64,000 bases of DNA, from contig JAINDK010000009.1 of the NCBI GenBank assembly GCA_019931185.1, positions 62,001 to 126,000 on the forward strand, given 5' to 3'. The notes beneath the pieces are model-generated. The model was given only the letters and a program-made list of their open reading frames with translations, ran no database searches and was not told the DNA's origin. The position numbers were made by a program, and so were the translations under genes. Positions 3,829 through 9,815 of the stretch are shown piece after piece. The stretch's first letter is position 1, and every line of letters begins with the position of its first letter. The stretch comes from Bryobacter sp. CoA8 C33 (GTDB taxonomy: Bacteria; Acidobacteriota; Terriglobia; Bryobacterales; Bryobacteraceae).

Positions 3829-6800
3829 TCAGAACCGGAACCTTAAGGAAGCCTGCATTCTCCGCGGCGAGCGCGTGCTGATCACCTCTCCAAACCGGGT
3901 GTTCACCTGCGCTCCACTGGCATCAAACCGTGCCGTTGCATCGACCCCGCTAAACTGGGTCTGATTGAACGCGTTGTACATCTCCCAGCGGATTTGCAGG
4001 CTTTTCTTTTCACTAAATAGCGGGATGTTCTTGAAGAAGCTGATGTCCCAGTTCGTGATTCCCGGTCCTCGGAATACATCCTTCGGAGCGTTTCCCGCGT
4101 CCCCCCGTGCCGGCCGCGCGAACACCCCCGGATTGAAAAAGCGCGAGAACGTTCTCTCTCCATAACTCAGTTGCGCTTTCCCTGTCACGTTGATTCGCGT
4201 CCCGTCCCCTCCTCCCGCGAGGTCCACTACATCCACCGTTGAAAAGCCCACTCCAGTGGGGAAGCCACTCGCGAATGTCGTAATCCCTGACACCTGCCAA
4301 TTGTCCAGAAGCAATCTTCCCGCCTTGCTCGGCACCAGTTTGCTACCCCGCGGAAGATCCCAAATGTAGTTCCCTACGAACATGTGCGTCTGGTCAAAGC
4401 CCAGCTTGCCGTAGTTCCAAACCCGTAGCGGCCGGTACAGCGCGATCCCATCTCCATCCGAGTTCGCATAGCCCATTGCTTTCGAATACGTGTAGGCAAG
4501 GCTGATGCTCAGCCCTCGCGCAAAGCGCCGGTTCAGTGTCGCCTGTCCCGAGTTGTAATTCGAAGTCGAGGAAAACTCGTTGTACGTGATCGAGCCCCAT
4601 CCCGGATACGGGCGGAAGAAATTATCCGGCAGCGGCGTCGCCGGATTTGAAGGATCGGCATTCTGCGCCAGGAATCTCGCTCCATAAGGCACCGTATTGA
4701 GATTCCGGCTCACCTGCAGGTGCCGCCCTACATTGCCTACATAGGTCAACTCGAGCACGGTCCCCCGCCCGATATCCCGCTGTACGCCCAGCGTGAAGTT
4801 GTACATCGCCGGTACCTTGTCGCCCCGCCGCTCAAAGGTCGAAGTATTGTTCGGAAACAATACACCAGTCGAACTCAAATAGTTGCTCAGCGAGCCGTAG
4901 TAAACCGTCGGCGTCTGCTGCGTCGGCGGATTCTGGCTGAATCCTCTCACCCCCGGCGCCACCGTGTTGTGGAAGATTCCGAACCCAGCCCGAATCGCCG
5001 TCTTGCCATCCCCAAAGGGATCGTACGCCAATCCGAATCGCGGCTCATATTGAATCGGCGCCTGTTCACGGAATCCCCGTGGATAACCCTGGTTCGACGC
5101 CACCACTGCCCCATTGAACGGCTCTCCCGTTCCCGGCACAAACGCTCCAATAAATACCGCCGGCAGAATCTCGCCCGTTCGCGGATTCACCGCTCGCCGC
5201 CCCTGTGGCGTGCTTACCGGCGCGTACAACGCCGGAATCCGTTGTGCATTGAACAACCCGAAGTCCCAAGCAGAGGCCTGCTGCCGCGCGTGATACCACT
5301 GGTTAAACCACACGAAGCGCAGTCCGATGTCGAATGTCAGCTTCCTCGTCGCCCGCCACGTGTCTTGCACAAACCACCCCATCGTCGACTTCCGTCCTTC
5401 GTTCGAAGGCCGGGATTGCGATTCGCTGTAATTCGCGAAATTCCCCAGCACCGCATTCGAATACGCATAGTTGCTGTCAAAAGGATTGTTCACGTCCCGG
5501 CCGAAGGCGAAACTGCCCCCATACGTTCCTTGTTCCCCTTCATAATTCCGCACCCGCTCGATGGCAATCCCCGCCTTGAACGTGTGCTTACCCGTTGTGT
5601 AGGTCGTGTTGTTGCTCAGATTGAAAGCCGTATCGGCCCCGCGCAGCGGAAAGCGCCCGTCATAAGTGATCGCCGCCGCATTCGGTACGCCCCCGTAGCT
5701 CGCCTGCGGAATGATCCCCAGCGGATTATTCCCCGGGTAGAACTGCCCCAAACCGCTCAATCCCCGATCCGCCCGCAGCATGTTCTTCAACTCCGTATCG
5801 TTCAACGGCGGCCCATCCTCCACCGAGTGCCGCGCCCCAAACGTGAATTCGTTCACCATCTTCGCCGACAGAATTCGCGCCCAGTTCATCACGATCCCAT
5901 CATCGGTAAACGTGTACTTTTGCTTGATCAGCCCCCAGTTGCTTGACCCCGCCGCCACCGCATAGCCGATCGAGTCCGCAAACCATGTCGATCCCCGGAA
6001 GTTCAACGAGTCATTCGCTGTCGGCTTCCAATCCACCCGGAATAAATTCTGGTTCCGCGGCTGCTCGATTGCTTCCTGAAACTGATAGTTGAAGTTCCCG
6101 CCTGTCAGTGCCCGGTTTAACTGGTTCGGCAACGGGAAGATATTCAGCATCGCCCGGCCATTGGCGTTCAGCCGGCTCGCCGGGATCACGTTGTTCGGAA
6201 AGTTCGCATTCGCCTGTGGATCCCGGATCGCAATCAGCCGGTTGTTTACGTCCACCGTTTGCGAAAAATCCCCCGTCCGCTCCAACTGTGTCGGAACCGT
6301 CACTTGCCGCACCGCCTGCGGATTTTTCACCCAACTCTTCTCAAACGAGTAGAAGAAAAACAGCTTGTCCTTCATCGCTCCTTTCAGCGGCACAGGCCCA
6401 CCCAGTGTGCCCCCTATCGTCGCGTACCGGTAAATCGGCCGCGCCACGCCATTCCGGTTGTTGAAGAAATCGTTGGCATTCCACTGTTCGTGCCGCTTGA
6501 ACCAATATGCCGTTCCGTGAAATTCCTTCGAACCCGATTTCGTCACAATGTTGATCGAACTCGCCCCATTCCTTCCGTACTCAGCCTGATAGTTGTTCAT
6601 CAACACTTTCACTTCCCCAATCGCGTCCATGTTGATCGGGCTTGAAAACGTCCCCGGACTACCCAGGTCGTTGCCCGTCACCCCGTCCACCTGCAGCGTA
6701 TTCCAATTGCTCCGCGTGCCCTGTATGTTCGGCGACTGCGTTCCAAAGCTACCTCCCAGAAACTCCGTATCGATCTGCTGCGATACACCCGGCAAAATCC

Positions 6801-7260
6801 TCAGCATCGACACAACATCGCGCCCGCGAATCGACACCTGCTCGATCTGCCGCGATCCGATCAGCGCCGAATGTTCCGTTGACGTCGTCTGCACCGTCAC
6901 CGCCTGTGCCTCGATCGTCACCGATTCTGATACCGCTCCAATCGTCAACTGCAAGCTCCCCACATTCAGCCGCTCGGCGGCGCTCAGTACATTCCCCGTC
7001 TTCTTCAGCGGCTTGAACCCGCTCACTTCCACCTGCACCGTGTAAATACCCGGCTGCAGGGCAGGGAAGCTGAAGTCCCCTGTTTCATTGGTCGCCGTCG
7101 TCCGCTCCTCCCCCGTCCGCTCACTCACCAGTTTCACGGCAGCCGCCGGAATCACATTCGCCGAGGAATCGACCACCGTACCCACGATCGAACCGGAGAT
7201 CGTTTGGCCCCAAACTGAAACCGACAAAAACGGCAATATTAGAAAGACGCGACGCAGCAT
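3829..7260 (-). CDS. TonB-dependent receptor, Oar-like, with carboxypeptidase-regulatory domain
   Basis: A 1143-residue outer-membrane protein, probably taking up or binding a large substrate with TonB energy. Residues 1-18 form a signal peptide ending at Gly-Gln. A CarboxypepD_reg Ig-like domain follows (about 20-105, with GTVVDSSANVIPAAAV). The plug region comes next (about 125-240, with VDGVTGNDLG and EYGRNGASSINIVTKSGS), then a long barrel. The chain ends in an aromatic-rich strand (QASLRFRF) with C-terminal Phe, as expected for barrel insertion. This architecture is heavily expanded in Acidobacteriota. No SusD-like partner or TonB gene is adjacent, so the substrate is unknown. Confidence 0.9.
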   Translation of the reverse strand: MLRRVFLILPFLSVSVWGQTISGSIVGTVVDSSANVIPAAAVKLVSERTGEERTTATNETGDFSFPALQPGIYTVQVEVSGFKPLKKTGNVLSAAERLNVGSLQLTIGAVSESVTIEAQAVTVQTTSTEHSALIGSRQIEQVSIRGRDVVSMLRILPGVSQQIDTEFLGGSFGTQSPNIQGTRSNWNTLQVDGVTGNDLGSPGTFSSPINMDAIGEVKVLMNNYQAEYGRNGASSINIVTKSGSKEFHGTAYWFKRHEQWNANDFFNNRNGVARPIYRYATIGGTLGGPVPLKGAMKDKLFFFYSFEKSWVKNPQAVRQVTVPTQLERTGDFSQTVDVNNRLIAIRDPQANANFPNNVIPASRLNANGRAMLNIFPLPNQLNRALTGGNFNYQFQEAIEQPRNQNLFRVDWKPTANDSLNFRGSTWFADSIGYAVAAGSSNWGLIKQKYTFTDDGIVMNWARILSAKMVNEFTFGARHSVEDGPPLNDTELKNMLRADRGLSGLGQFYPGNNPLGIIPQASYGGVPNAAAITYDGRFPLRGADTAFNLSNNTTYTTGKHTFKAGIAIERVRNYEGEQGTYGGSFAFGRDVNNPFDSNYAYSNAVLGNFANYSESQSRPSNEGRKSTMGWFVQDTWRATRKLTFDIGLRFVWFNQWYHARQQASAWDFGLFNAQRIPALYAPVSTPQGRRAVNPRTGEILPAVFIGAFVPGTGEPFNGAVVASNQGYPRGFREQAPIQYEPRFGLAYDPFGDGKTAIRAGFGIFHNTVAPGVRGFSQNPPTQQTPTVYYGSLSNYLSSTGVLFPNNTSTFERRGDKVPAMYNFTLGVQRDIGRGTVLELTYVGNVGRHLQVSRNLNTVPYGARFLAQNADPSNPATPLPDNFFRPYPGWGSITYNEFSSTSNYNSGQATLNRRFARGLSISLAYTYSKAMGYANSDGDGIALYRPLRVWNYGKLGFDQTHMFVGNYIWDLPRGSKLVPSKAGRLLLDNWQVSGITTFASGFPTGVGFSTVDVVDLAGGGDGTRINVTGKAQLSYGERTFSRFFNPGVFARPARGDAGNAPKDVFRGPGITNWDISFFKNIPLFSEKKSLQIRWEMYNAFNQTQFSGVDATARFDASGAQVNTRFGEVISTRSPRRMQASLRFRF

Positions 7261-7317: not shown

Positions 7318-9057
7318 ATGACCTTCCTCGATCGCCACACCGCCCGCGTTCTGGCGACGATTCTTGTCTTCGTCTTCACGCTCTGGATCCTTTGGGGGCT
7401 TCGTGAATTCTTCTTCCTCCTCATCGTCGCCCTCTTTTTCGCCTGCACCGTCGAGCCAATTCTCGCCGCCATCTACCGCCATACCCCCAGCTTCATCTCT
7501 CGCCGCATTGCCACTCTCATCACTTTCCCGCTCGTCTTCCTTTCTTCCGGGCTCATTCTCACCATCCTCGGCCAGATCGTTGTCAACCAAGCCTCTCAAC
7601 TCATCCAGCAACTCCCCTCGCTCAACTCCGACCCCTCCCGCTCGCCCCTCCTTCCCCTGCCCGGCTATCTGGAACCCTGCCGCGAGGAGATCATGCGCCT
7701 CGGCTTCCAGATCGCCCACGATTTCTCCAACCTCTTCATCGCGAATATCTCCAGTGCCGGCTTTCTTGTTCTTGCCCCTGTCTTTGGCCTCTATTCTTTG
7801 CTCAAAGGCTCTTCCTGGCGTAATGCCTTAGTCCTATTCGCCGCCCGATCCGGCCGCGCGATCTGGCTCGCCGCCCTGCTCGATGACCTCCATACCCTCC
7901 TGAGCAACTGCATCCGCGCCCTCTTCCTGCATAGCCTCGCCGTCCTTCTCGCCTACCTCGCCTTCTACCACCTCATCGAACTGCCCTTTACCCTGCTGCT
8001 GGCCACGCTCGCCGCGGTTCTCGAAGTCATCCCCCGGCTCGGCTGGCCCAGCGCCGCCCTGCTCAGCATCTTCGCCGGAGAATTACTCGGTGGCGTCCGC
8101 CGTTTTTTCCTGTCGATTCCAGTCCTCGCCACGCAACGCATTTTCTACCGCCACGCACTGCGCCCCGGAGCGATCCTGCTCGGCCTCACCGCCGCCTCCC
8201 TCAGTGCTCACTCCATTAGCCTTTCCACCAGCGAAGCGGTAATCGACGGCTCCGCCCTCACGCTCAAGCTCCGCATCCCGCGCTACGAGGTTGAACACGT
8301 GCCCTTCACCGGTCTCTCTTCCGCCTTTCATTTCTCCGGCGCCCAACTCAACTCCTCTTCCTGCGCCCCTCAGGATCAGGAAATCCTCTGCGACCTCCGC
8401 TTTGCCTTTCCCTCTCCTCCCGCTGAGCAGCTCGACGCGCAAATCACCCTCGCCCGCGTTACCGTTCCCAACCACGTTCATATACTGCGCATCAGCCGCG
8501 GCCCCGTCACCCGCCAAATCGTCTTCGATCGCACCTTCGAGAAAGAACGCATCAACTTCCATGAGCCCGGCCGCATGGAAGTCTTCTGGCGCGCCGCCCG
8601 CATGGGCTTTGCGCAGTTGCTCTATCAACCGGTCCTTCTCGCCCTGCTCCTCATCCTCCCGCGGCCCCTTGCCTATTCCGCCGCCCTCGCCGCTGCCTTC
8701 CTCGTCGTACTCCCTGATCGCTTCTACGCCTCCCCCGGCTTCTTCGAACTCGCCACCGCCATCTCGCTCACCTACCTGGCCTGCGAGCATCTGCTCTTCC
8801 GCGATGCCTCCGGCAAATGGCTCATTTCCGCCGCCATTGGCCTCCTCGAAGGCGCCACCCTCGCCATCCTCGCCCGTCCCACCGGTTCCGGCGCCGTTGC
8901 TTTCGGCGCCGGTAATCTCCTTGCGACGCTCACCCTCAGCCTCGGCGCACGCTACTTCGCCCGCAAAATTCCCCCCCTAATCGAGCGCTATCTCTACTGG
9001 GCCTTCGCCGCGCTGGGAATTCTGTGGACGATTTGGGTCTTCTTCAATCGCTTCTGA
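7318..9057 (+). CDS. AI-2E-type transporter domain fused to HupE/UreJ-like membrane domain
   Basis: The frame has 579 codons from ATG 7318. The N-terminal 280 or so residues look like the AI-2E/PerM permease family: helices at the start, then FLSIPVLATQRIFYRH, which resembles the family's normal C-terminal end. About 50-60 residues usually found between the IP-Gly loop and that end seem to be missing. Immediately after comes a signal-peptide-like stretch (LLGLTAASLSAHS), an exported domain with LARVTVPNHVHILR, and six or seven helices resembling HupE/UreJ-like proteins, without the usual GxDHxxF motif. It may be two former genes. See the finding on base 8158. Function unknown. Confidence 0.65.
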   Translation: MTFLDRHTARVLATILVFVFTLWILWGLREFFFLLIVALFFACTVEPILAAIYRHTPSFISRRIATLITFPLVFLSSGLILTILGQIVVNQASQLIQQLPSLNSDPSRSPLLPLPGYLEPCREEIMRLGFQIAHDFSNLFIANISSAGFLVLAPVFGLYSLLKGSSWRNALVLFAARSGRAIWLAALLDDLHTLLSNCIRALFLHSLAVLLAYLAFYHLIELPFTLLLATLAAVLEVIPRLGWPSAALLSIFAGELLGGVRRFFLSIPVLATQRIFYRHALRPGAILLGLTAASLSAHSISLSTSEAVIDGSALTLKLRIPRYEVEHVPFTGLSSAFHFSGAQLNSSSCAPQDQEILCDLRFAFPSPPAEQLDAQITLARVTVPNHVHILRISRGPVTRQIVFDRTFEKERINFHEPGRMEVFWRAARMGFAQLLYQPVLLALLLILPRPLAYSAALAAAFLVVLPDRFYASPGFFELATAISLTYLACEHLLFRDASGKWLISAAIGLLEGATLAILARPTGSGAVAFGAGNLLATLTLSLGARYFARKIPPLIERYLYWAFAALGILWTIWVFFNRF

Positions 9058-9068
9058 TTCGCGGCCAA

Positions 9069-9815
9069 TCAGCTCGCAAAGTTTACGATCTGGGCGAAGC
9101 TCGCTGCATCAAGGCTCGCTCCCCCCACCAGCGCCCCGTCAATCTCTTCCTGCGCCATCAGCGCCTTGACATTGTCTGGCTTCACCGAGCCGCCGTACAG
9201 GATGCGTACCTCCGCTCCCCCGAACCGTTCCGCTGCCAGCCCCCGGATCACCCGGTGCGCTTCCGCCGCCATCTCGGGAGTGGCCGTCTTTCCCGTCCCG
9301 ATCGCCCAAACCGGCTCATAAGCGATGACGATCCCGGCGAATTCCGCCGCCGTCAATCCGGCAATCCCACCCTCAAACTGCTTCCGTAGCACCGCCTCGG
9401 TTTCCCCCGCCTCGCGTTCGCTGAGCAGTTCCCCCACGCACACGATCACCTTCAAGCCCGCCTCCATCGCTGCCTTCGTGCGCCGCAATACCGTCTCATC
9501 CGTTTCCCCAAAGTACTGCCGCCGTTCACTGTGCCCCACGATCACCCACGTGCAACCCAGCGCCTTCAGCATCGGCCCGGAGATCTCCCCGGTGAACGCT
9601 CCTTCCTTGGCCCAGTACAGATTCTGCCCGCCGATCATCACGGCGCTCCCGGCCGCGGCCGATACCGCCTCGGGCAGGTCCACGAACGGCGCGCAAATCG
9701 CAACTTCGCAACCCGTCGTGTCCTTCACCAGAGGCAGAAAACTCGCAAAAAATGTCTTGGTCTCGGCCGGTGTCTTGAACATCTTCCAGTTCGCGGCCAT
9801 CAGTGGAATTCGCAT
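9069..9815 (-). CDS. tpiA: Triosephosphate isomerase
   Basis: A 248-residue cytoplasmic TIM barrel interconverting dihydroxyacetone phosphate and glyceraldehyde 3-phosphate in glycolysis. ANWKM near the N-terminus holds the substrate-binding Asn and Lys. GHSERR carries the electrophilic His, AYEPVWAIGTG the catalytic Glu and flexible loop, and LYGGSVKPDN the phosphate-binding turn. Length is normal for the family. It is the last gene of a long minus-strand run, ten bases after the phosphodiesterase gene. The classical gap-pgk-tpi neighbourhood is absent. Confidence 0.97.
   Translation of the reverse strand: MRIPLMAANWKMFKTPAETKTFFASFLPLVKDTTGCEVAICAPFVDLPEAVSAAAGSAVMIGGQNLYWAKEGAFTGEISGPMLKALGCTWVIVGHSERRQYFGETDETVLRRTKAAMEAGLKVIVCVGELLSEREAGETEAVLRKQFEGGIAGLTAAEFAGIVIAYEPVWAIGTGKTATPEMAAEAHRVIRGLAAERFGGAEVRILYGGSVKPDNVKALMAQEEIDGALVGGASLDAASFAQIVNFAS

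Follow-up and report, generated by a model that had tools for sequence, protein, structure and literature searches.

The window, a stretch of 64,000 nucleotides from Bryobacter sp. CoA8 C33, contains a single open frame on the forward strand at positions 7318..9057, which encodes 579 amino acids followed by a stop and joins an AI-2E-type permease half, an internal signal peptide and an anglerase/HupE-like half. Three further species of the genus carry this joint as well, so the fused frame is not the product of chance; it is a genuine in-frame fusion, passed on by inheritance, of two genes that stand in tandem and overlap or nearly touch each other in relatives. The features of the joint suggest that the fusion probably yields a two-protein precursor, which would be cut by signal peptidase I between A297 and H298.

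The fused frame and its counterparts within the genus

All features of the fused gene lie on the forward strand. The AI-2E-type permease half (7318..8142, residues 1-275) is recognized by its match to PF01594 and by a TqsA fold in the model. It is followed by the internal signal peptide FYRHALRPGAILLGLTAASLSA (8143..8208, residues 276-297; judged by eye) and by a predicted signal peptidase I site, A297/H298 (8206..8211), in which H298 is the invariant His. The second half comprises a metal-binding-type outer domain with the predicted fold of a beta sandwich (8209..8562, residues 298-415) and a HupE/UreJ_2-like membrane part (8563..9054, residues 416-579), the latter assigned by homology to relatives matching PF13795 and by helices in the model. 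Thus, the fused AI-2E and HupE-like frame proposed in the preliminary description was confirmed. A gene resembling those of TonB-dependent receptors (3829-7260) diverges upstream of the fused gene and a triosephosphate-isomerase-like gene (9069-9815) converges on it downstream, both named by eye.

A search of the genus covered eight genomes, seven of which had a match. In four of these seven, the window genome (G000), G001, G003 and G005, one frame runs through the joint, and the remaining three (G002, G004 and G006) possess two separate genes. The fused frame is 631 aa long in G001 and 633 aa in G003; in G005 it was found to be open across the joint when read from the DNA. In the two-gene species, the second gene is located in the +1 frame and the stop codon of the AI-2E gene lies inside the signal-peptide codons of the second. 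The distance between the conserved FLSIP codons and the His codon is 102 bases in the window, 99 in G001 and 105 in both G003 and G005, compared to 118 bases in G002 and G004 and 121 in G006. Hence, the fused spacings differ from one another by whole codons only, and the fused species are 13 to 22 bases shorter at the joint than those of the genus with two genes.

The preliminary description had offered either a new fusion or a sequencing or indel event, in which the C at 8158 (read in cacgcaCtgcgcc) would be a single extra base within a normal two-gene locus. If this base is omitted, the upstream frame does stop at 8240, as had been computed, and an ATG opens ahead of the signal peptide, as judged by eye. 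However, the in-frame joint recurs in G001, G003 and G005 with spacings that vary by whole codons only, and a gap of 13 to 22 bases between fused and two-gene species means that no single base explains the joint. In addition, removal of base 8158 would place the AI-2E stop 31 nt past the conserved His codon at 8209, but each of the 68 separate pairs surveyed has this stop 28-254 nt ahead of the codon. The fusion therefore stands and the idea of one extra base was rejected; a sequencing or assembly error at 8158 is highly improbable.

The preliminary description had also held that related genomes carrying the same fused frame under purifying selection would refute the indel idea, and such selection was found for one close pair. 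Between G003 and G005, one of which (G005) carries two further deletions of 127 and 189 bp, dN/dS was 0.069 over 373 shared codons. The 28 codons preceding the His displayed 11 synonymous and 2 nonsynonymous changes, and the last 18 of them 6 synonymous and no nonsynonymous changes. Over the same 18 codons, dN/dS was 0.36 for G001-G003, 0.32 for G000-G001 and 1.7 for G000-G003, values that derive mostly from near-saturated sites, so that these pairs are less informative on selection. The fused gene of G005 (L038, 1489-3074) differs from that of G003 by the 127-bp deletion, which is out of frame, and the 189-bp deletion, which is in frame, and the stretch contains no N; this copy may be decaying or a pseudogene, or it may be misassembled, the assembly being fragmented.

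The AI-2E half and the metal-binding-type half

AI-2E_transport (PF01594) matches residues 14-242 of the window protein with 56.8 bits against a Pfam cut-off of 34.3. The match covers positions 3-238 of the 327 of the profile, compared to 4-326 in G001, so that it does not extend in full through the conserved C-terminal region, and the AI-2E half of the window protein is thus a shortened relative rather than a complete member of PF01594. In the structural model it still aligned to TqsA (7nb6) with a Z of 15.6 and an rmsd of 5.1 over 261, and residues 3-333 of the G003 model did so with a Z of 19.2 and an rmsd of 8.6 over 308. The window protein accordingly shares PF01594 and the fold with the AI-2E family, including TqsA (7nb6), YdiK (7ot9) and the UPF0118 antiporter. 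It differs from the family by the fusion at its C-terminus and, in the window copy, by the absence of 49 residues that by eye include the counterpart of UPF0118 Motif D.

An internal gap of 50-60 residues had been noted previously; the gap is real, but it amounts to 49 residues, corresponding to an in-frame deletion of 147 bp between 8067 and 8068. Among the fused copies this loss is seen only in the window genome; G001, G003 and G005 retain the stretch holding FQDYVITPxVM, which by eye we take to correspond to Motif D. The deletion is an event separate from the fusion. Around its scar, at residues 240-258 and 260-262, the window model is of low confidence. Several residues of Motif D are needed for the activity of a different AI-2E member, according to the available part of the study concerned (PMC7221264). 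It is somewhat more probable than the opposite that the AI-2E half of the window protein no longer transports.

Slightly better than even chances are given to a reading, compatible with a cut precursor, in which the locus is in decay and the AI-2E half of the window protein has become a dead leader, retained solely for carrying the second protein in frame. Such decay would be in line with the loss of FQDYVITP among the 49 residues, with the reduced coverage of PF01594 relative to G001, and with the longest AI-2E branch in the genus (0.60; two outgroup branches are longer). It would also agree with the gene content of the window genome, which has two other AI-2E genes and a single anglerase-HupE gene, no second one being found at the search threshold. 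However, the deletion preserves the frame without any subsequent stop, and the model of this half has remained TqsA-like.

Outside the AI-2E half, Pfam yielded nothing above cut-off in the window protein and, hence, no match to PF13795. An alignment of 46 proteins, which includes the second half of the window protein, contains 41 that match PF13795 at E <=0.01, and H298, E324, C349 and C358 are invariant in all 46. By this alignment, the second half is to be classed as a HupE/UreJ_2 homologue, although by Pfam score it is not a member of PF13795. A sequence search of the PDB with the HupE profile found nothing. The motif TVPNHVH is invariant in alignment A5 and present in 31 of the 45 homologues of the whole-genome-search subset; it was dismissed as evidence for conservation since it belonged to one of the two search patterns. 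Alignments A3 and A4 were set aside, as distant HupE rows had been misplaced onto the AI-2E part.

The predicted outer domain of the window protein aligned to RbAng-1a (9gce) with a Z of 10.0 and an rmsd of 2.6 over 110 residues, and to 8f1b with a Z of 13.4; the HupE/UreJ_2-like membrane part (residues 416-579) was modelled as helices. The model of the complete G003 protein, made with AlphaFold2, reached a mean pLDDT of 85.7, with low values at 291-317 and at 339-351, the latter stretch extending from within the signal peptide up to the His. Residues 351-468 of this model, of which residue 351 is the His, aligned to residues 1-157 of RbAng-1a with a Z of 10.0 and an rmsd of 2.7 over 110.

Anglerases are outer domains located ahead of HupE/UreJ_2 permeases and received their name in a 2025 study, the available part of which also describes that His1 of RbAng-1a binds Cu once the signal peptide has been removed (PMC12537917). 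With Ang-1/Ang-2-HupE/UreJ_2 proteins as described there (RbAng-1a, PDB 9GCE), the window protein shares a signal peptide, an invariant His, a beta-sandwich and a HupE/UreJ-type membrane part. In the anglerases described in that part of the study the signal peptide is N-terminal, whereas in the window protein it is internal and follows a permease, and the identity between RbAng-1a and the fused proteins is only 14-16% over the fold match. The closest folds of the outer domain are ZrgA (8f1b) and PA4063 (7bgo), both crystallized with zinc (Z 12-13); the solved chains of these two consist of the domain alone and lack a permease part. As a His immediately follows the signal peptide (the latter judged by eye) in the window protein and an Ang-type beta sandwich is predicted for the protein, H298 is predicted, by analogy to the anglerases, to bind copper or another metal through a free N-terminus.

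The membrane His of the LGxFHG motif occurs in 38 of the 46 proteins of A5, whereas all five proteins of the window genus in this alignment have Glu instead. At this position (column 238 of A5, counted from 0) Glu is found in members of the genus whether fused or not, and the window protein reads LLEGA. As the substitution is shared by fused and unfused members, the handling of the metal may have changed before the fusion arose.

The internal signal peptide and its putative processing

A likely signal peptide at the junction had already been noted in the preliminary description, which missed that cutting such an embedded signal peptide would expose a His of the metal-binding type. The residues flanking the predicted site were compared in 89 distinct homologues with the start present, a sample that is not random, as about half of them were retrieved solely by searching with patterns that had been derived from the fused proteins; the profiles were trained on these proteins, and a homologue was counted only if its match reached the first profile position. 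Falling outside the 89 because the match misses the start are G005, whose HupE match is broken, L018/L139, L158 and the main piece of G125, of which the first piece was counted.

All 89 homologues have a His at +1, immediately behind the signal peptide, as well as Ser residues at +4 and +6. The His is likewise found in all 45 homologues of the whole-genome-search subset, and the broken copy of G005 also has it after the signal peptide. The residue at -1 is Ala in 76 homologues, Gly in 11, and Pro and Thr in one each, and Ala is retained in all four fused copies. At -3 the window protein has Leu, as do 29 of the 89 homologues. At this position of a signal peptidase I site, Leu is tolerated but is not the best residue. 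The uncharged run preceding the His spans 13-15 residues in the fused proteins and has a median of 13 in the unfused ones (range 1-20, n=86), so that there is no sign of the segment having become a permanent anchor. The basic start of the internal signal peptide is provided by the tail of the AI-2E protein, and in the window model residues 284-298 have a pLDDT <50. As judged by eye from these sequence features, the internal signal peptide appears to have retained a normal length and the residues of a cleavage site in the joined copies.

We propose that the genes were joined within the start region of the second gene, whereby its signal peptide would have become an internal segment. The fused protein would be inserted as one chain, with the signal peptide spanning the membrane in the inside-to-outside direction, and would be cut after A297 by signal peptidase I. 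One product would be the AI-2E half, extended at its C-terminus by the signal peptide, the other a separate anglerase permease with an N-terminal His298 able to bind a metal ion. We infer the cleavage from the segment not having lengthened into an anchor and from the His having no free amino group if the chain were left uncut; the topology, the metal binding and a shared physiology are inferred as well. With regard to topology, PhoA fusions on another AI-2E member placed the C-terminus in the periplasm, according to the available part of that study (PMC7221264), which does not fit a signal peptide running from inside to outside, whereas the basic tail in the present proteins argues for the opposite orientation.

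It is unlikely, but worth weighing, that the fusion is real and left uncut, with the signal peptide serving as a short membrane linker that holds two transporters in one chain and the His internal, lacking a free amino group. The frame is indeed uninterrupted across the joint in each of the four species, and AlphaFold2 places a helix over the linker, at 318-346 of the G003 model, with low confidence from 339 on. However, the His, which in anglerases acts via a free N-terminus, is invariant throughout the 89 homologues, the Ala at -1 has been kept in every fused copy, and an uncharged run of 13-15 residues is short for a usual anchor.

Separate production of the second protein from an internal start codon, which would leave the fused frame of little consequence, is quite improbable. 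Candidate in-frame codons exist: in G001 an ATG 34, a GTG 22 and TTGs 11 and 3 codons before the His, in G003 ATGs at 36 and 43 codons, in G005 ATGs at 29, 36 and 43 and a TTG at 26 codons, and in the window a CTG at 8158, 17 codons before the His. However, no position is common to all four fused copies, rendering a shared internal start unlikely. Also, in the window the 136 codons ahead of the His contain no ATG, GTG or TTG in the reading frame, and nothing resembling a Shine-Dalgarno sequence is visible by eye in front of the CTG. In G001 the GTG would give rise to a plausible signal peptide, and internal initiation may occur there.

Processing of the precursor by signal peptidase I would resemble that of FbcH of Bradyrhizobium, a cytochrome b-c1 precursor that is cut at an internal signal sequence. 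In both cases one gene encodes a polytopic membrane protein, then an internal signal sequence and, behind it, an exported metal protein. The proteins themselves are unrelated, and cleavage, which was shown for FbcH, is predicted for the fused protein.

Origin of the fusion and pairing of the two genes

In the tree of the AI-2E core, its three fused copies formed one clade (99/99), and a grouping of G003 with G004 was rejected (p-AU 0.0008). The tree of the HupE part was undecided (p-AU 0.25). In the rpoB tree based on all codon positions, the fused G003 and G005 grouped with the unfused G004; a fused clade was rejected when all positions were used (p-AU 0.002), whereas positions 1+2 did not reject it (0.21). 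A search for rpoB in G002 and G007 found none. The AI-2E core and rpoB trees thus conflict, and both one origin followed by later exchange and two origins are possible.

Across the homologues, an AI-2E gene adjoins the anglerase gene in 71 of the 89 distinct cases, in 3 of them within the same frame and in 68 as a separate gene, and an AI-2E neighbor is present in 33 of the 45 homologues of the whole-genome-search subset. Among the matches listed for 237 genomes of the family and 399 of the class (partly the same), no other single-frame fusion was found. Candidates that were rejected as fusions comprise G224 and G226, where the genes are in frame but separated by a TAA; G252, which has a listed open frame of 690 aa and yet a TGA between the genes by table 11; G125, in which the genes are separate and broken; G192, in which AI-2E is joined to a CorC-like frame across unknown bases; and G212, where no anglerase gene was found in the stretch read. 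At L074/L091, L086 and L090, the two genes of a separate pair share one frame and are set apart by a single stop codon, possibly an intermediate towards fusion.

Conserved neighbors were compared in 69 stretches, in which the commonest families after the AI-2E/anglerase pair occurred in 14. A CorC/HlyC-like gene, named by eye, is located near the pair in 14 of the 69 stretches (e.g., L133:2757-4284), and such a neighbor would fit a role of the pair in metal transport. Another 12 stretches have relatives of the window's TonB-like gene close to the pair. The first 20 kb of the window yielded no match to a gene that adjoins the pair in G001, G002, G003, G004 and G006.

AI-2E permeases are common, but to our knowledge mostly without a known substrate. 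In a literature search, we found no paper treating both AI-2E and HupE. The natural fusion, on top of the adjacency in 71 of 89 cases, links AI-2E permeases with anglerases and points to a shared role of the two. We see an even chance that signal peptidase I acts here as a processing protease, one cut freeing the AI-2E permease and creating the metal-binding His, and that AI-2E permeases are metal-handling partners in these Acidobacteriota. The fused species provide a clean natural test of whether the freed His is needed, as in these species it would be free only if the chain is cut.
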